Source of the DNA: Phycisphaerae bacterium
GTDB taxonomy: Bacteria > Planctomycetota > Phycisphaerae > Sedimentisphaerales > Anaerobacaceae
NCBI GenBank assembly: GCA_017993835.1
Contig: JAGOLX010000007.1
Location: forward strand, 20,913 to 84,912
Direction: 5' to 3'
Length of the DNA stretch: 64,000 nt
In this document: one piece after another, positions 1 through 11,393 of the stretch
Layout: each line of letters begins with the position of its first letter
How positions within the stretch are numbered: position 1 is the stretch's first letter
Program-made: the position numbers and the translations under genes
The notes under the pieces: model-generated
What the model was told of the DNA's origin: nothing
Seen by the model: the letters and a program-made list of their open reading frames with translations, nothing else
The model's database searches: none

Positions 1-1095
1 CCGGGCACTCCGTATCCGTGGGCGGACACCTGGTCTCGATGGCCGGGCACACCGTGTCCACAGTCTTGCACTTCGTCGGCGTCGGCGGGCAACGAGTCTC
101 GTAGACCGGGCACTCCGTCTGGACGACAGGACACTCGGTCTCCACGGGCGGGCACGAGGTCGTGATGGCGGGGCATTTCGTCGTAGTCGCCGGGCAGTGG
201 GTCTCGACCGGCGGGCAGCGCGTCTGGTAGACCGGGCACTCCGTCAGGACGACGGGACACTTGGTTTCCGCAGGCGGACATTTCGTGTCGGCCGTCGGGC
301 ACTTGGTCTCTGTGACCGGACACTTCGTATCGATGGGCGGGCACTTGGTTTCAACGGGCGGACACTTGGTCTCAATCGGCGGGCACCGCGTCTGGTAGAC
401 CGGGCACTCCGTCAGGACGACGGGGCACTTGGTTTCCGCAGGTGGACATTTCGTGTCGGCCGTCGGGCACTTGGTCTCTGTGACCGGACACTCGGTCTCG
501 ACGACGGGGCACTTCGTGTCGGCGGTTGGACACCTGGTCTCGACTGCCGGGCACCGCGTTTTGAAGGGCGGACACTCCGTCAGGACGGCGGGGCACTTGG
601 TCTCCGCAGGCGGGCACTTCGTGTCGACCGGCGGGCACTTGGTCTCTGTGACCGGGCACTTCGTCTCGATGGGTGGGCACTTGGTTTCAACGGGCGGACA
701 CTTGGTCTCAATCGGCGGGCACCGCGTTTGATAGACCGGGCACTCCGTCAGGACGACGGGGCACTTGGTTTCCGCAGGCGGACACTTCGTGTCGGCCGTG
801 GGGCACTTGGTCTCTGCGGGTGGGCACTTGGTTTCGACCGCGGGGCACTTGGTCTCTGCGGGCGGACACTTGGTCTCGACCGCGGGGCACTGGGTCTCGC
901 CGGTCTGGCACTCCGTCGCTACGGGCGGGCATTTCGTCTGCACCGGCGGACAGCGGGTTTCTACCAGTGGGCACTTGGTCTTCGTGGGCGGGCACTTGGT
1001 CTCTGCCGTCGGGCAGCATGTCTCGACCACTGGGCATGTGGTCAGTGCCGTGGGGCACTTCGTCTCGACTACCGGGCACTGCGTGTGGGCCGTAG
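1..1095 (-). repeat. Tandem 21-bp repeat encoding CPxxxT(K/E/R) heptads
   Basis: About 52 uninterrupted 21-bp units, read on the minus strand as Cys-Pro-x-x-x-Thr-Lys/Glu/Arg, one Cys each. A higher-order period is visible: the plus-strand word ccgtcaggac recurs at 241, 409, 577 and 745, and a decayed form sits at 913, exactly 168 bp (8 units) apart. A further copy at 115 is 126 bp (6 units) before the first. The array continues past the window start. Confidence 0.95.
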
Positions 1096-4000
1096 GTTGC
1101 GACGTGGGAACGGGCGGGTCCTCCACGGTGAATCTGAGACAGAACGCCAGATCGATCGAATTGGTTCTGATATCTGCAAAGGGGTGGCCGGACGGATATC
1201 GCAGTTCCGCCCAATTTGCGGCCGAGCCATCACCCCATACGGCGTCATCCATGAAGTGCTCGGGCCATTGTCGAGTCTTCCATCCGAACTGGCCGTCGGT
1301 GGTCTTGACCTGGACGGACAGCCAGTAGATCACCGGTTTGTCGTACGTACCCTCCTGCAGGAAGGCCTCCTCCGGCTTGACGGTCATGCCGATCAGCCAG
1401 ACCTGCTTGTCGCCCTCCGGCGTCAGGTCTCCCGTCCAGGGGTCCCACCACCACTCATATCCGATGTCCATGGTGTGGTAGAGTTTCTCGGCGAATTCGC
1501 CCGAGGTGAACGTCCTGCCCCACAGGACCTCGGGTCCGGGCTTGGAGTACTGGTTCTCCTTGTCGTATCCCTCGGTTCCCACGGGATCGTCGGGGTGGAT
1601 CTGCACGCTGACGCTCCGAATTTCGCCCTTGACGTCGCCTTTCCAGGAGCCCCACAGGCGGATGTCGGTCAACCGGCCCCGACTGGTACACTGGAAATCG
1701 TCCGCGAGCGTGCGCGAGGCGTCATTGCTGGTGTCCACGCAGATGTCGATCCCTCGCGGCGTCAGGTCGGGCGTCTGGCACCATCCCTTTTCGCCCGTAC
1801 CCGTCGACGGCGGGCCGATCTTCACGATGTGGTCCTCGACCTCGCCGTCCGGCGCCGCGCCGTCCGGGGCGAGTCCGCCGTTCGTGCTGATGCGGAACCG
1901 CGCGAAGGTCACGCCGACAGCCGCACTGTTGGGGACCACGAATGGAACGACATGGACCCCATCGGGAAGGAAGGCGTCGTGGATCTTCTCTGCGACCTGC
2001 CAGGTGAAGTCTCCATTGAAGTCGATCCACGCCTGGACTACGCCGCCGCCCCCGTTGACTTCGACCGTTGCAGAGGCGAGTTGGCCGACGATGAGCGGCG
2101 AGAAGATCACGCCTCGCTCATCCGAGTTTCCAGAGTTGTCGTCGCCGAGGGCGCTGGGGTCTGGCTGGCCGTCGGGTTCAGAGTCGGGCATATTCTGTGC
2201 ATCGCCCAGCCACGGGCCGACCGGGCGGTGCCTGGCGCCGTTTTCCGCGGCCAATGTGGGGTAGCCTAGCGCAGCCGCGGTGGTGGGGGCGTCGCCCCAA
2301 TCGAACTTCAGCGGGAATGCCTCAATCATAGGCTGGACCAGGTAGTCCTCCGTCTCGCCATACAAATAGCCTCCCGCCGGTCCGGCGCCCTCGAATCCAG
2401 GCGCCGCGCCCACCAAGATGATGGACGGAAGATGTTGCTGCTCGCTGATTGTGATCCGGACCCACAGTGGGTCGAGCCCTTGTCCCTCGGGGTGCCAGCA
2501 TTGGAATGCCGGCGAATCGATCACATATGTGCCCGGCGCGACCAGAGGGAAGACGTGATTCTGCACGGCCCACTCGGGCGCTATCGTGCCGTCGGCGCAC
2601 GTGTGCACGTCGTCCCAATCGCCGTCGCGGTTCCAATCGAACCACATATTCACATAGGCCTGCCAGGCCGCTACACCTGTCACGGTCACTGTGTACTGGA
2701 CAGTGGTCGCTTGGCAGGACGGCAGGATCAGGGGAAGCGTCAGACCATCATCGGCGCCGTCCTGGTTTGGCGCGTCATTGAGTGGATCGATGTTGTTGAC
2801 GGTGTCCTCATCCGCGCCGATGTCCGCTTCCGTCTCCAGACTGACCGCATTGCCCAGGAAGAACATGCGCCGCGGCTTGAGGTGGATCGGGCCATACGGC
2901 GGCGAGCCGGCCTGGTAGACCGTCGGATAGTGCGCGATCACGCCGGACGGATACGCAAGCATCGTCGCGCCTGCGACGCTGTTCGAGCTGTCCGGGGCGT
3001 CCCCGAGGTCCTTCTCGGGCTTCCCTTCATCGTCCCCTGTGATGACGAAGGCCATATCGAGCGACAGGCCTGCGTAGCGGTGCTCGTCGGGATAGACCAT
3101 CTCGACCCAGCCGGCAGTGCCCGGGATGGTATAGACAGCATCGTCATTCCAGCGGCACTGCAGCGACGCTGTCTTCCACCCGAAGGAAGCGCCCGCAGTC
3201 GCGGCGGAACTCGTGACCGCGGGATAGCACGCTACGGCCAGCCAGTAGATGGTCCCCTCCTGTTGCTCGAAGGCGTTGTCGTCGATGCAGAAGTTGTACT
3301 GGAAGGCATATCTGTGATTGTCCGGCAGATAGCGGCCCGTCATGGGATCGTACCATCCCTCGGGACCGTTGTGGACCCTGCGGACGGTGTACTGGCCGGA
3401 ATGGAACGTCCGGGTCCACAGGAGGCTGCCCGGCCGGCTCCAACCGTTGGCGGTCGCCGGGATGTCCGAGTAGATGCTCAGGACGAAGGACAGATTGCCC
3501 GGGCCTTGCTGGGGCAGGACGTCTGCGCGGAACGATCCCCAGAGGTGGATGTCGTGAATGGGACCGGTTTCGGTGCATTTGAAGTCGTCGGCCAGGGTGA
3601 CCTGGGACAGATCGACATCCATTCCTGTGGAGGCCAGGTCGGGCAACTGCGGCCAGTGCATCTTGTGGGGTTTGCCTGCCGCCCAGTCGCAGGCGCCGCC
3701 CTCGCCGGCCGCGATCGACAGGCCCGGCTGCGTCTCGTAGGCCCAGCCACTGATGACGACGCTGTGCGTTTCCGTCCCGATGTCCGACTGGCTCCCTATG
3801 AGCAGCCAGCCATACTGGCCCATCGCCGTGCGAAGACCAACGTACCCGCCGTCTTCGCCGAACTCGCAGGGTCCCAGCAGATAGGCTGAGTCCAGAAACG
3901 TCGCGTCGGGACCAATGGCAGACCCCATGGACAGGTTGGGTGCGAGGAGCGCAAGACCCAGGATGCCTCCCGCGCCCATCCCCATGCCCAAGTCCATCCC

Positions 4001-4285
4001 CATACCCAGGTCCATGTTCATGCTGCTGGCCATGCTGCCCGGCCCGAAGATGCCCAGGTGGGTCCCCATGCCCATGTCCATCGCGGACATGTCCCCCGGC
4101 ATGCCCATGTCCAGCCACAGCTCGACGCGGAAGTCGTCCCAATCGCCGTCCATGGCGCCGAGTTGGATGATCCGGGACTCCATCGGATGGAGGATGACAT
4201 TCTGGGAGCCTGAGTAGACAATTGCCGCGAACGTAGGCGAGGTGGCTGCTGCGATTACGGCACAGAGAATCGTGACACGTCTCAT
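1..4285 (-). CDS. Giant secreted GEVED-like protein with C-terminal Cys heptad repeats, 3' end outside the window
   Basis: The frame is open from an ATG at 4285 to the window edge (1428 codons seen, no stop). AAGGAGG lies 8 nt upstream of the ATG. A signal peptide covers residues 1-20. Residues 58-106 are rich in Met and Gly. Two copies of a roughly 220-residue domain (about 175-410 and 830-1055) share ADDF(K/Q)CT, HLWGS/RLWGS and FGWKT motifs; I think this is the DUF7901 type, from memory. Between them lie two GEVED-like segments with WIDFNGD or WFDWNRDGDWDD and GE(V/T)ED motifs (about 420-650 and 660-830). From about residue 1063 the chain is only CPxxxTK heptads. It is probably exported and cell-surface or matrix associated. 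The function is unknown. Long plus-strand frames over this stretch are shadows of the repeat. Confidence 0.88.
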   Translation of the reverse strand, partial: MRRVTILCAVIAAATSPTFAAIVYSGSQNVILHPMESRIIQLGAMDGDWDDFRVELWLDMGMPGDMSAMDMGMGTHLGIFGPGSMASSMNMDLGMGMDLGMGMGAGGILGLALLAPNLSMGSAIGPDATFLDSAYLLGPCEFGEDGGYVGLRTAMGQYGWLLIGSQSDIGTETHSVVISGWAYETQPGLSIAAGEGGACDWAAGKPHKMHWPQLPDLASTGMDVDLSQVTLADDFKCTETGPIHDIHLWGSFRADVLPQQGPGNLSFVLSIYSDIPATANGWSRPGSLLWTRTFHSGQYTVRRVHNGPEGWYDPMTGRYLPDNHRYAFQYNFCIDDNAFEQQEGTIYWLAVACYPAVTSSAATAGASFGWKTASLQCRWNDDAVYTIPGTAGWVEMVYPDEHRYAGLSLDMAFVITGDDEGKPEKDLGDAPDSSNSVAGATMLAYPSGVIAHYPTVYQAGSPPYGPIHLKPRRMFFLGNAVSLETEADIGADEDTVNNIDPLNDAPNQDGADDGLTLPLILPSCQATTVQYTVTVTGVAAWQAYVNMWFDWNRDGDWDDVHTCADGTIAPEWAVQNHVFPLVAPGTYVIDSPAFQCWHPEGQGLDPLWVRITISEQQHLPSIILVGAAPGFEGAGPAGGYLYGETEDYLVQPMIEAFPLKFDWGDAPTTAAALGYPTLAAENGARHRPVGPWLGDAQNMPDSEPDGQPDPSALGDDNSGNSDERGVIFSPLIVGQLASATVEVNGGGGVVQAWIDFNGDFTWQVAEKIHDAFLPDGVHVVPFVVPNSAAVGVTFARFRISTNGGLAPDGAAPDGEVEDHIVKIGPPSTGTGEKGWCQTPDLTPRGIDICVDTSNDASRTLADDFQCTSRGRLTDIRLWGSWKGDVKGEIRSVSVQIHPDDPVGTEGYDKENQYSKPGPEVLWGRTFTSGEFAEKLYHTMDIGYEWWWDPWTGDLTPEGDKQVWLIGMTVKPEEAFLQEGTYDKPVIYWLSVQVKTTDGQFGWKTRQWPEHFMDDAVWGDGSAANWAELRYPSGHPFADIRTNSIDLAFCLRFTVEDPPVPTSQPTAHTQCPVVETKCPTALTTCPVVETCCPTAETKCPPTKTKCPLVETRCPPVQTKCPPVATECQTGETQCPAVETKCPPAETKCPAVETKCPPAETKCPTADTKCPPAETKCPVVLTECPVYQTRCPPIETKCPPVETKCPPIETKCPVTETKCPPVDTKCPPAETKCPAVLTECPPFKTRCPAVETRCPTADTKCPVVETECPVTETKCPTADTKCPPAETKCPVVLTECPVYQTRCPPIETKCPPVETKCPPIDTKCPVTETKCPTADTKCPPAETKCPVVLTECPVYQTRCPPVETHCPATTTKCPAITTSCPPVETECPVVQTECPVYETRCPPTPTKCKTVDTVCPAIETRCPPTDTECP

Positions 4286-4547
4286 GATCTGTTCCTCCTT
4301 CTGCGACAACCGATCCCGACTTCGGTGTGCGCACTCCCACCGAGAACCGCCACGGCCTTGTTTGACTTGTAAGATATGCTCTGTTGCCGTCTCGGATGGT
4401 GCGTATGGCCTTTGGCGCACGCACGGAGTAACAATCTGAGTATACGCTATCTTCTTCCGTCCGGCGTGTCAAGATGAAAAACGATTTTTCCGGAAGCCCA
4501 GGTCGCCTTCGCAATTCCGAGTGCAAGTGCGGAGAAGAAGGCGTCGA

Positions 4548-6854
4548 TCATCTGGCTCCGGGCTCCCGACAAGGTTTGCCGGCCAGGTATAACTCCAGGC
4601 GGGCATCGAGCGTCTGCGTCGATCCCTGAGAACTGTTTCGGACGATCTCGATAGCCTGCCGGACGGTCCGGATTGCCTGCTCGAATTGGCCCGTCTCCGC
4701 GTAGGCGGCCGCCAGGCTGTCCAGCAGGGGAGGCGACTTGTGGTCCGTCGCCTTGCAGGCCCATTCGGCCAAGCGCAGCGCCTGCTCCCCGTTCCGGCAC
4801 GTCGCGTCCGGACAGGTCGCGAGCAGCCAGGCCAGGTTGTTCGCGATGCCCACGTCGCCGGGATTTGCCAGATGAGCGGCGCGAAGGTGAGCCAAGGCCT
4901 CCCGGTACTGCCCGGCGCTGCACAGGAGACCGCCCAGCAGGCCGTGCGTCATCGGACTGCTCGGCGCCAGCAAAACCGCCTTCCGGGCATGGGGGATCGC
5001 CTCCTGCTCCTGATGGAGTCGGGCCAGGCAGGACGCCAGGAGGTAGAGCGATTCCACGTGGTTGGGCTCTTCGCTCAGGACCGTGTGGAACTCCGCGATG
5101 GCCTTGGCGTACTCGTGCCGGCGTTCGCAACCGAGCCCGATGCGGTAGTGGGTGTAGTAATCCGCGAACTCCTGTCGGATCTCCGCGAACCGGCGGAAAT
5201 CGACGTTCACGAATTCAGGGATGTTGGCGGCGCGATTGGACGCGGTGAAGTGCTCCAGCAGGACCGCGGGACTGTCGTTGCCTTCGGCGTCGATGTGTGT
5301 CAGCCAGAGTTGTGTGAACGGCCCGTCGGCCTTCGATGCAAACACCAGCCACCTGCCGTTGGGGGACCAGCTATGCCAGGAGTTCATCTTGTCGGGAAAG
5401 TTGCATCGCATCCGTCGCGGCGTGCCTCCGTCGGCGGGCAGGATGTACAGCGTGCTGTCCGGCTGGAGGAGCATGAACGAATCGCTCTGGCAGAACACGA
5501 TCCACCGCCCGTCCGGCGAGAAACGCGGAAAGAAGTTGCTCTTGCCGTTTCCCGAGGCGCCGGGCAACGGAATCGCCTGTCCGCCCAGGCCGTTGTTGAA
5601 GGGGATTCGGTAGAGGTCGTAGCGGAATTTCTTATCGCCCTCGAAGAACTCGGCGACTTCCTCTCGCTCGACCACCACGGAGGCGGCGTCCTTCAGGCCG
5701 GTGAGCTTGTACGCTGGGGCATAGGCGAACAGGATCGTCTTACCATCGGGACTCCACACGGGATTGCTGTGTACGTATTGACGGTCGTCGGCGCCCGGAA
5801 GCGGGAAGAATCGCTGGGTTTGCCGGTCGTAGACCACCAGAATGCCCGTCACCGGGAAGAACCGCTGCGAATAGTACAGGTCGTCCACCGGCGCGAACAC
5901 GGACCGGTCCTTGACCGTGCTGACGACGTACCGCCCGTCGGGCGAGATCTGCGAGAGCAGGCCGAACGTCGGCTCCTTGTCGTCCCGCAGGTAGTCGCTC
6001 CAGGAGATCACCTTGTCCTTGCTCAGCACGGTCTGCGGCTGGACCTCGGCGATGACGTAGGACCCCTTGTCGCTGCCGTAATCGACGTCCATCGCGAGGG
6101 TCTTGCCGTCGGGGGTGAAGGAGTGACAATTGCCGCAGACCTTCATGCCGGTCAGCAGGGTGCGGGACTCGTACCTGGAGACCTCGCCCAGTCGCCAGCG
6201 AATGGAGTCCAGATTGGCCAGGACGTGACGAAACGGCAGCGGCACATCGCGAAAGAAGATCGGCGCCCCGACCGGGTCCTCGTAGAGATTCAGTCTCACT
6301 CGCCCCTGCGACAAGGCCCTGTCCGGCCGGTCGCTGGAAAAGCCGGTGATTGTGACCACGGCAGCCCCGCGACCCCACAGCCCTTTGATTTGGTCCCACT
6401 CCTGCGGATCGGGTCGCCATCGCCTGGTGGGGACCTCCGGCGCGGGCGGCTGATAGGCGGCGCCGGCCTGTGAGATGGACTGCGGATCGTCGTCCGGCGC
6501 CCGCGGCGGCGTGGTCCCCTGGGTGAGCACGTACACATGATTGGCGTCGAACGCCAAGTCGATCAGCCAGACGTCGGCTTGCTGCGTCGGGTCGCTCCAC
6601 ACGAACGTCGGCGCTGCGATGTCCTGCGGAAGAACCGCTTCATCCAGAGGATAATTGACCGCCAGGGTCGCCAGATTGTCACTGGTTGAGGCTGCCCTCA
6701 CAGCCTCGCCAATTCGCCCTTCGGCAATCGACGGAACCGTCTGCGACGGGAAGCACACGACCGCATTGGCTTGTCCGAGAAGTGGATGGTCCGCCGACCG
6801 GGCCGGACCGGCCATCGCCACCGCAATTGCGACCCAGATGATCGTGTCTCTCAT
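4548..6854 (-). CDS. Secreted PD40 beta-propeller protein with CxxCH motif and C-terminal TPRs
   Basis: 768 residues from the chosen ATG at 6854, which opens a clear signal peptide (MRDTIIWVAIAVAMAG). In-frame starts at 6884 and 6977 would put extra residues ahead of the signal. The middle has several TolB/WD40-like PD40 blades, seen as SPDGRYVVST, SPDGKTILFAY, SPDGRWIVF and SPNGRWLVF. A CGNCH motif at about residue 239 matches a c-type haem site, just before one blade. The last 190 residues are TPR-like (repeated EAI..ARKAV, EALAHLRAAH), with NNLAWLLATCPD as seen in planctomycete TPR proteins. It is probably periplasmic. The substrate is unknown. The gene stands alone on the minus strand. 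Confidence 0.85.
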   Translation of the reverse strand: MRDTIIWVAIAVAMAGPARSADHPLLGQANAVVCFPSQTVPSIAEGRIGEAVRAASTSDNLATLAVNYPLDEAVLPQDIAAPTFVWSDPTQQADVWLIDLAFDANHVYVLTQGTTPPRAPDDDPQSISQAGAAYQPPAPEVPTRRWRPDPQEWDQIKGLWGRGAAVVTITGFSSDRPDRALSQGRVRLNLYEDPVGAPIFFRDVPLPFRHVLANLDSIRWRLGEVSRYESRTLLTGMKVCGNCHSFTPDGKTLAMDVDYGSDKGSYVIAEVQPQTVLSKDKVISWSDYLRDDKEPTFGLLSQISPDGRYVVSTVKDRSVFAPVDDLYYSQRFFPVTGILVVYDRQTQRFFPLPGADDRQYVHSNPVWSPDGKTILFAYAPAYKLTGLKDAASVVVEREEVAEFFEGDKKFRYDLYRIPFNNGLGGQAIPLPGASGNGKSNFFPRFSPDGRWIVFCQSDSFMLLQPDSTLYILPADGGTPRRMRCNFPDKMNSWHSWSPNGRWLVFASKADGPFTQLWLTHIDAEGNDSPAVLLEHFTASNRAANIPEFVNVDFRRFAEIRQEFADYYTHYRIGLGCERRHEYAKAIAEFHTVLSEEPNHVESLYLLASCLARLHQEQEAIPHARKAVLLAPSSPMTHGLLGGLLCSAGQYREALAHLRAAHLANPGDVGIANNLAWLLATCPDATCRNGEQALRLAEWACKATDHKSPPLLDSLAAAYAETGQFEQAIRTVRQAIEIVRNSSQGSTQTLDARLELYLAGKPCREPGAR

Positions 6855-7184
6855 ACGCCACCGGTCAGATGCGACACTAATCATCCTATTCTTCCACGGG
6901 CCGGTTGTCAATTGACCGTGGCGGTCGGAGCGGACGATTCCGGAGTGTTTCCTCACGATGCGAAAATACGTAGTCATACGTATGGAATTGTCCCATCGAG
7001 AACGGCTATAATGGAATCATCGCCGGCGGTGGGGAGTGGGGTCTTCCTGCTCCCGTACTGCTGTTGGCTGTTTTCATGCCGAGCCGCTGTTCACGCCAGG
7101 CTCGCAGATCGGGAGGTGAGTAGATGCACGCCACGCGCAGATTCCGGGGGATGCTTGGAGTAGCGCCGCGCCCACCACGGAACG

Positions 7185-10423: not shown

Positions 10424-10663
10424 CGTGGTTCAAGAACATCGTGGTGCGAATCCCAGTACGGGGTATCGATGGGAATGGGTGGATCACCAGGACTCTATCA
10501 CAGGCCGTGGGAAGAAGGTGTGGAGCCGCTGAAGACCTTCTCGCTCCAAGTCACAGTGCCTTAGGCCGACTTGACTCGAATAAGTTTTGACGAGCAAGAT
10601 CGGCAATCGAACCGTGTGGCCATGTGGCCATGTGGCACCCCCGCCCTCGGGGGTGATCCCAGC

Positions 10664-10727
10664 GATCCCAGCCGGGGGCGGCTGGGCTGCATTACGATCC
10701 CAGCCGAGGGCGGCTGGGCTACACTAC
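10664..10727. repeat. Two 32-bp tandem repeats overlapping a gene end
   Basis: Two copies, 10664-10695 and 10696-10727, start with gatcccagccg and share ggcggctgggct. The second copy holds the stop codon of the minus-strand EndoIII-like gene, so the last few residues of that protein are encoded by repeat sequence. Confidence 0.75.
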
Positions 10728-11393
10728 GTTGCGGACGCCGGGGATGACGCCTGCGGATTCGAGGGGGCAGCCTGAGCAGTGCGGACGGGGCTTGCAGTAG
10801 TTCTTACCCGCCATGACGAGCAAGGCGTGGAACTCGTTGAACAGGGCCACATCGGGCTCCAGGTTCGATGTGAACAGGTCCTGCAACTGCGGATAGTCGA
10901 GTTCCTCGCCGATCAGGCCGTGACGGACCATCACCCTCGCGGTGTACGTGTCCACGACGAAGACCGGGCGGTTCAACGCGTACAGCAGGATCGAGTCGGC
11001 GGTCTCGGGACCGATACCGGAGACGGCCAGCAGTTCCTCCCGCAGGCGGCCGGTGGGGACGTCCTCGAAGCTCTGCATGTCGCCGTCGTATCGGTCGCAC
11101 AGCCACGTGAGGAAGTTGCCCAGACGCTTGGCCTTCACGCGGAAGTAGCCGGCCGGGCGGATCAGCGTCGCGAGTTCCTCCGGATCGAGCGCGTGCAGCT
11201 TGCTCGCGTCGAGCAGGCCCGCGGCCTTGAGATTGGCGATGGCCCTCTCGACGTTGCTCCAACTGGTGTTCTGCGTCAGGATGGCGCCAACCGCGATCTC
11301 GAACGGGGTCTCGCCCGGCCACCAATGCTGCGGGCCAAAGGAGTCCAGGAGCAGGCGGTAGATCTCCAGCAGGCGTTCTCGTGTCGTCTTCAT
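10719..11393 (-). CDS. Endonuclease III-like HhH-GPD DNA repair protein
   Basis: 224 residues from the ATG at 11393; an upstream in-frame start at 11495 would only translate MITE-like DNA. The HhH motif is VSGIGPETADSIL (124-136), followed by the catalytic Asp in VVDTYT (D148). These belong to the base-excision repair glycosylase fold. The position equal to the lyase Lys of Nth is Glu (E130), as in MutY-like or EndoIII-related enzymes without a Lys lyase. The Fe-S loop has only three Cys (C200, C206, C209) and ends soon after in LESAGV. It is therefore a divergent member, not a standard Nth. The target lesion is unknown. Confidence 0.85.
   Translation of the reverse strand: MKTTRERLLEIYRLLLDSFGPQHWWPGETPFEIAVGAILTQNTSWSNVERAIANLKAAGLLDASKLHALDPEELATLIRPAGYFRVKAKRLGNFLTWLCDRYDGDMQSFEDVPTGRLREELLAVSGIGPETADSILLYALNRPVFVVDTYTARVMVRHGLIGEELDYPQLQDLFTSNLEPDVALFNEFHALLVMAGKNYCKPRPHCSGCPLESAGVIPGVRNVV

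Follow-up and report, generated by a model that had tools for sequence, protein, structure and literature searches.

Cys-Pro-Thr heptad arrays and a downstream membrane-protein pair in planctomycetes and related bacteria: a candidate surface scaffold

Envelope proteins of the chlamydial OmcB type, which belong to the PVC superphylum, are Cys-rich, extracytoplasmic and linked by disulfides. The heptad array analysed here is likewise Cys-rich, extracytoplasmic and of PVC origin, but no sequence match to the OmcB type was seen, its cysteines keep a strict seven-residue spacing, and its own genome, which is 99% complete, holds no detectable VKOR or DsbB, the two oxidising families tested. Fibrillar adhesins of the CshA type offer a likeness of another kind, being secreted, modular proteins in which GEVED domains are followed by a long repeat stalk (PMC10952558); in our protein, however, the stalk is built from Cys-Pro-Thr heptads that lie outside Pfam, no anchor domain was recognised, and a dedicated GIFT/DUF4350 membrane pair is encoded downstream. 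Planctomycete DUF7901 proteins (PF25470) share with it the DUF7901 domain, of which it carries two copies and its genome nine, but among the DUF7901 proteins of this genome it alone bears the array. The two downstream proteins, which we call dn1 and dn2, resemble GIFT proteins of the GldG, ABC_transp_aux and IFT52 kinds in matching PF09822, PF23355 and PF14258, yet unlike GldG-type proteins they have an additional N-terminal multi-span membrane part and no conserved ABC permease partner. No family in the profile libraries tried covers the array, and the literature searched contained neither a description of it nor a relevant paper on CPxxxT repeats or on Cys-rich planctomycete walls.

The window, by which we mean the whole 64,000-nucleotide stretch of DNA that was analysed, holds 51 complete CPxxxTx heptads on its minus strand at positions 8 to 1078, with the consensus CPxxxT(K/E/R), the Cys of the first unit lying at 1078. 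An earlier note on this DNA had claimed a ladder of one Cys per seven residues with an exact 168-bp super-period, preceded by a 126-bp step, and had suggested block duplication as its origin; the ladder and its steps are as described, the duplication is supported, and the note indeed understated the case. The landmark CACTCCGT recurs at positions 6, 111, 237, 405, 573, 741 and 909, that is, at spacings of 105 and 126 bp followed by four of 168 bp, which reproduces both the positions and the steps, and TRF agrees (168-bp period over 200-897, 83% matches). Four 8-heptad (168-bp) blocks, units 16-47, occupy 92..763 on the minus strand. Units 16-23 and 32-39 are 94% identical, while units 24-31 are 81-85% identical to either of them; the last block, units 40-47 (92-259, minus strand), has decayed, its 64-71% identity lying near the 60-65% background of heptad-to-heptad comparisons. 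DNA identity is 60-65% at the other heptad lags and 24-32% out of register with the 21-bp unit. The array is not a chance product, since a DNA pattern for three successive units has 48 matches in the genome, every one within the array gene, and the reversed-pattern control has none. Elsewhere in the window, at 10663-10728, lies a 32-bp tandem repeat of two copies that is unrelated to the array.

The array does not end where the window does; the earlier note counted about 52 terminal heptads, and the window contains 51 complete units. Directly to the left of base 1 are 100 N, a scaffold gap at C17:20813-20912 of the genome, and the contig ends that flank it share an exact overlap of 127 bp, identical to window positions 1..127. 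This looks like a k=127 assembly join, in which two contigs sharing one k-mer were separated by a gap of default size; three gaps of this kind, each again with an exact 127-bp overlap, occur in the same-genus relative G397, one of them within its own array. When the ends are joined at the overlap the frame stays open and gives a protein of 1504 aa with 56 heptads followed by CPICDAGTNSGGELKTLLGDACVAVNTPCMTIGDYMAIARAMR and a stop codon. The figure of 56 is a reconstruction across the gap and the true copy number could differ, because a join of this type marks a branch in the assembly graph; the worry that the array might be an assembly collapse is therefore justified for its copy number, though not for its existence. 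Behind a short non-heptad linker a last Cys-x6-Cys forms a C-terminal cap in 14 array proteins (CVAVNTPCMTIGDYM in the window protein, CPAIEVKCPTIIEDA in L131, for example), of the form C-x-x-(V/I/L/A)-(E/D/N/Q)-(V/A/T)-x-C-x-(T/S/L)-hydrophobic, a pattern formulated after inspection of the tails.

The array is the C-terminal part of a longer protein, encoded in an open frame at 2-4420 on the minus strand with a likely start Met at 4285. Reading from its N-terminus, the order is signal peptide, DUF7901, GEVED, GEVED, DUF7901, the 56-heptad array and the Cys-x6-Cys cap. The signal peptide, MRRVTILCAVIAAATSPTFA, lies at 4226..4285 (minus strand, as are all features of this protein), its cleavage region judged by eye. 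A Met/Gly-rich segment, MDMGMGTHLG...MDLGMGMDLGMGMG, covers 3956..4120; own-genus orthologues carry versions of differing length and family orthologues lack it. Within it TRF finds an 18-bp repeat at 3976-4015. The first DUF7901 copy lies at 3038..3661 (PF25470; genome C17:23950-24573) and the second at 1136..1783 (genome C17:22048-22695, 1.9e-43), the two together scoring 303 bits against a cut-off of 24 (1.3e-90). The GEVED copies between them, the first at about 2321..2576 (bounds approximate, motif GETED at 2359) and the second at 1823..2038 (residues 750-821, 2.7e-21), match PF20009 in two stretches with 76.6 bits against a cut-off of 24.4. These two families are the only Pfam matches of the window protein, the array having none, and NCBIfam gives no match for the protein. 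The signal peptide and the modular secreted architecture bear out the earlier description of a secreted protein, and since GEVED domains occur in fibrillar adhesins (PMC10952558), secretion, modular build and GEVED domains together place it at the surface. AlphaFold2, applied to the DUF7901-GEVED-GEVED-DUF7901 part, models the DUF7901 regions with pLDDT of about 80-90; weak, long beta-sandwich alignments to integrin alpha-V, complement and RbmA structures in the PDB stay below a TM of 0.3, and we draw no function from them. Directly upstream of the array gene a PD40/TPR protein is encoded at 4548-6977 (minus strand), matched in the same-genus loci L064 and L066 and in none of the other loci compared.

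What is kept within the heptad can be read from its codons. Over the 56 units the first and second positions of the C1 and T6 codons are invariant, whereas third positions vary, with an entropy of 0.84 bits for Cys and 1.21 bits for Thr (TGC/TGT 41/15; ACC/ACG 30/24), and the codons of Pro at position 2 behave nearly alike. Because the Cys and Thr amino acids are fixed while third positions drift, the array protein is under purifying selection. The same residues stand out among 40 array proteins with 1838 heptads, in which C1 is present in 100%, T6 in 97% and P2 in 90%. Pro also occupies position 3 in 25% of heptads. Where the Cys spacing is 8-11, Thr still stands two residues ahead of the next Cys in 86-100% of cases. 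Heptads without proline are rare (about 9%) and tend to have CPPx(P/A)T before them and CP(A)V after them, a context common to planctomycetes and verrucomicrobia.

CPxxxT tandem arrays, which the earlier note proposed to seek in planctomycetes, occur in secreted proteins there and, beyond them, in Verrucomicrobiota and Victivallales. Six of the nine genomes of the window's own genus have one, as do two genomes from other genera of its family (G417, G423). Among the matches listed, in-frame arrays occur in Phycisphaerae/Sedimentisphaerales, Pirellulales, Brocadiia, several Verrucomicrobia and Victivallales, and also in two bins labelled Deltaproteobacteria and Nealsonbacteria, label assignments that are provisional; this spread comes from a pattern scan of named genomes, a sample rather than a census, and nearly all array-bearing genomes are metagenome-assembled. 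Pattern matches in Haloechinothrix, Nostoc, Prauserella and others proved to be short runs and not real arrays. The partners of the array vary, from DUF7901 and GEVED in the own genus and family to dockerin-like ends elsewhere (L075:1-549 and L152:1-2571, where arrays are followed by dockerin-like duplicated calcium-binding motifs). Some verrucomicrobial array proteins exceed 1200 residues. In L069 (a 510-aa frame) and L160 (582 aa) the array stands nearly alone behind a signal peptide, and it can therefore make up almost the whole mature protein. Two further variants may be recorded: an array protein at L082:2521-3237 (plus strand) ends in a cytochrome-c-like region (CSCHGPLAQSSKRG...), possibly a haem domain, and in L063:4453-8850 and L131:2-1549 recurrent inserts (CxAITVCQGSSETIC) interrupt the heptad spacing.

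Beyond the gap, and thus outside the window, dn1 (870 aa, L001:3843-6455, array strand) abuts the stop codon of the array gene, and dn2 (940 aa, L001:1318-4140, same strand) comes next. A simple hydropathy scan gives 8 hydrophobic segments in dn1 and 10 in dn2. Both belong to the GIFT/DUF4350 superfamily: dn1 exceeds the cut-offs for PF14258, PF09822 and PF23355 (DUF4350 5e-24), and dn2 those for PF09822 and PF14258 (ABC_transp_aux 1.5e-11), falling just under that for PF23355. They are not GldG, their scores of 11.1 and 14 bits standing against an equivalog cut-off of 389.85 for TIGR03521. Pfam and NCBIfam profiles detect no glycosyltransferase catalytic domain in either and, even with E allowed up to 1, no exosortase family; a resemblance to exosortase/PEP-CTERM motifs around GATFAGLDFLVL is an impression only. 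A dn1 homologue comes next after the array in the own-genus loci L065, L067 and L068, in L062, L063, L090 and L131, and in the distant loci L069, L071, L082, L127, L128, L153, L146 (Verrucomicrobiia) and L141 (Victivallales), in most cases no more than about 0.3 kb away and on the same strand, with dn2 usually behind dn1 where the contig is long enough. To these loci genome-wide searches add L235, L236 and L239 (Pirellulales) as well as L240 (Verrucomicrobia). The dn1 homologues that were aligned are 44-65% identical to the window organism's dn1. The dn1 of G398 (L068:3757-6440, minus strand) is interrupted by a stop and spread over two frames, through pseudogenisation or sequencing error. Beyond dn2 no gene is conserved across families, apart from one partial match in one family relative.

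How specific is this partnership? In the own genus dn1 occurs in 6/6 array genomes and in 0/3 without arrays (Fisher p 0.012), and in a phylum sample of 392 genomes a dn1 homologue is present in 6/7 array genomes against 9/385 others (p about 7e-9), after inspection had removed 4 of the 11 pattern-positive genomes (G027, G092, G194, G256) as short or chance repeats. Among the matches listed, 18 of 19 array-bearing genomes hold a dn1 homologue at E <1e-20. The adjacency is not universal. In G046, G103 and G114 dn1 is present only in a more distant form that does not lie immediately behind the array; in some array-bearing genomes the only homologues are distant ones on other contigs; and at seven loci (L072, L073, L080, L099, L136, L160, L170) no dn1 adjoins the array although the sequence downstream is long enough to accommodate one. 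Genomes that lack arrays (G203, G259, G293, G354, G357) can carry distant dn1 homologues too, and the flanks read there show no evident common upstream partner. Plasmids gave no dn1 match. The tight pairing of array with dn1 and dn2 is thus the core of a looser association, and the window's array belongs to a widespread family whose pair of membrane partners is conserved.

The 8-heptad step of the window belongs to a limited repertoire of block lengths that recur across phyla. For each heptad lag we compared the self-resemblance of the variable positions with that under shuffled unit order. Among the 25 runs that reach 20 units or more, seven resemble themselves best at lag 8, four each at lags 16 and 11, three each at 5 and 3, two at 6, and one each at 4 and 20; none does so at lags 2, 7, 9, 10 or 12-15. 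The combined z is positive at lags 3, 5, 6, 8, 11 and 16 and negative at lags 1, 2, 7, 9, 10 and 15, a sign pattern that largely persists when the own genus is left out, when Verrucomicrobiota are taken alone and, lag 11 apart, in runs without strong duplication. Segments added later, which are new sequence but mostly from genes or genomes already sampled and so amount to a partial, not fully independent replication (L235 overlaps in source with L179, L236 with L109, L239 with L124, L240 with L114 and L221 with L066), gave combined z of 2.1, 2.3, 1.8, 7.4, 5.9 and 3.2 at lags 3, 5, 6, 8, 11 and 16, and of -3.6, -2.1, -2.3, -2.6 and -2.2 at lags 4, 7, 9, 10 and 15; the means are +3.8 for lags predicted positive and -2.2 for those predicted negative. 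Four of the six later-added runs have a best lag of 6, 8 or 11, and two weak runs fall off the set (L221, lag 7, z 2.1; L235, 12 units, lag 2, z 1.1). A spectral analysis peaks at 4 and at 2.7 heptads, and because the former is driven by recently duplicated arrays we prefer the lag test with its later-added segments. The set of lags is consistent with a quasi-period between 8/3 and 11/4 heptads, or some 19 residues, and we infer that the array may wind with a period of about 2.7 heptads and that duplications which keep the phase are favoured. Alternatively the favoured lags could reflect descent from a common ancestral block, a relatedness that the shuffles leave in place.

What kind of element could such an array be? 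A coiled coil is excluded because proline sits in 90% of the units at position 2 (and in a quarter of them at position 3), and the only PDB match by sequence is a designed Cys coiled coil at E 0.28. Nor is it like a metallothionein, which would show CxC/CxxC clusters: 1838 Cys-Cys spacings are of 7 and only 26 of 2 or 3. Two array proteins (L114, L153) reach 25.6 bits, above the cut-off of 22, for the Pneumocystis major surface glycoprotein (PF02349), matches that are short, confined to Cys-rich repeats, absent from the window protein, and taken by us as compositional. The simplest shape is an extended, proline-stiffened rod, and the array is probably a structural element of that type, decorated with cysteines that would join rods to one another. 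The winding of such a rod would be quasi-periodic, repeating about every 2.7 heptads (19 residues), with block duplications surviving best when they keep phase at 8, 11, 16, 5-6 or 3 heptads, and the polytopic proteins dn1 and dn2 would export, modify or anchor it at the cell surface. A surface scaffold is our best guess for the role of the protein, in which the array follows DUF7901 and GEVED domains; the crosslinking or metal binding that the earlier note envisaged for it is a hypothesis. The fuller proposal, in which the scaffold is a secreted rod and a membrane module dedicated to it carries out assembly, perhaps including glycosylation, is one we put forward tentatively, as a reading that falls a little short of an even chance. 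Several points weigh against it: AlphaFold2 gave an unusable model of the array (21 heptads, 31 alignment rows, pLDDT 37, pTM 0.18), dn1 adjacency is not universal and its distant homologues also occur without arrays, and gene order is association rather than mechanism.

Other readings share part of this evidence. If the threonines of T-x-C-P were O-glycosylated with the help of dn1 and dn2, the array would be a glycosylated stalk, and the main task of Cys and Pro would be to hold the rod straight. That T6 is better conserved than P2 and holds its place before the next Cys when the spacing changes would then make sense, as would the GIFT, ABC_transp_aux and DUF4350 matches of dn1 and dn2, for GIFT domains have been proposed to bind sugars and are present in the oligosaccharyltransferase subunit Wbp1 (PMC7226087); but the pair has no detected glycosyltransferase catalytic domain, no further conserved gene follows dn2, and packing alone could fix the threonine, and we regard this reading as a reasonable second hypothesis, though an unlikely one. 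The Cys density of one in seven could instead serve an extracellular metal binder or thiol store, in effect a giant metal sponge. With neither VKOR nor DsbB found in the genome, reduced cysteines are conceivable in anoxic habitats, and own-genus proteins have the Met-rich segment as well. Against this, the spacing is almost always 7, unlike the CxC/CxxC of metal-thiolate proteins, the fixed Thr and Pro have no evident metal-binding role, and no metal transporter or regulator was seen in the cassette as conserved, which leaves the sponge unlikely too in our judgement.

A regular Cys ladder on a secreted protein of the PVC group, reaching more than 1200 residues in relatives, also recalls a wall or coat crosslinked by disulfides in the manner of Cys-rich chlamydial envelopes. 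The oxidising machinery speaks against it, DsbB being found in 0/12 genomes searched and VKOR in 4/12 that do not track the presence of arrays; DsbD_TM, though in 12/12, belongs to a reductant-type or CcdA-like family, and we think such a coat likewise unlikely. That the repeat expanded neutrally or arose in assembly, and does not function as an array, might be entertained on the ground that arrays break assemblies, as the 127-bp overlap gaps at the window edge and in one relative's array attest. The codon pattern already contradicts it through the purifying selection on Cys and Thr, the same heptad recurs across phyla, and both the C-terminal cap and the gene order are conserved, so that this last account is scarcely credible.

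Returning to the scaffold rod, we consider it possible, if doubtful, that the array and dn1/dn2 constitute a PVC secreted-repeat system not described before, a phase-locked Cys/Thr rod polymer built at the membrane and perhaps glycosylated. If this is true, the system would give PVC bacteria a protein-based surface layer or stalk. An unclassified Cys-rich repeat from several phyla whose members are mostly uncultured is tied to a specific pair of membrane proteins, and its assembly is therefore genetically testable. The restricted block lengths provide a rare clue, taken from sequence only, to the geometry of repeats for which structure prediction gave no usable fold, and the arrays bear on the composition of the unusual envelopes of planctomycetes and their relatives.
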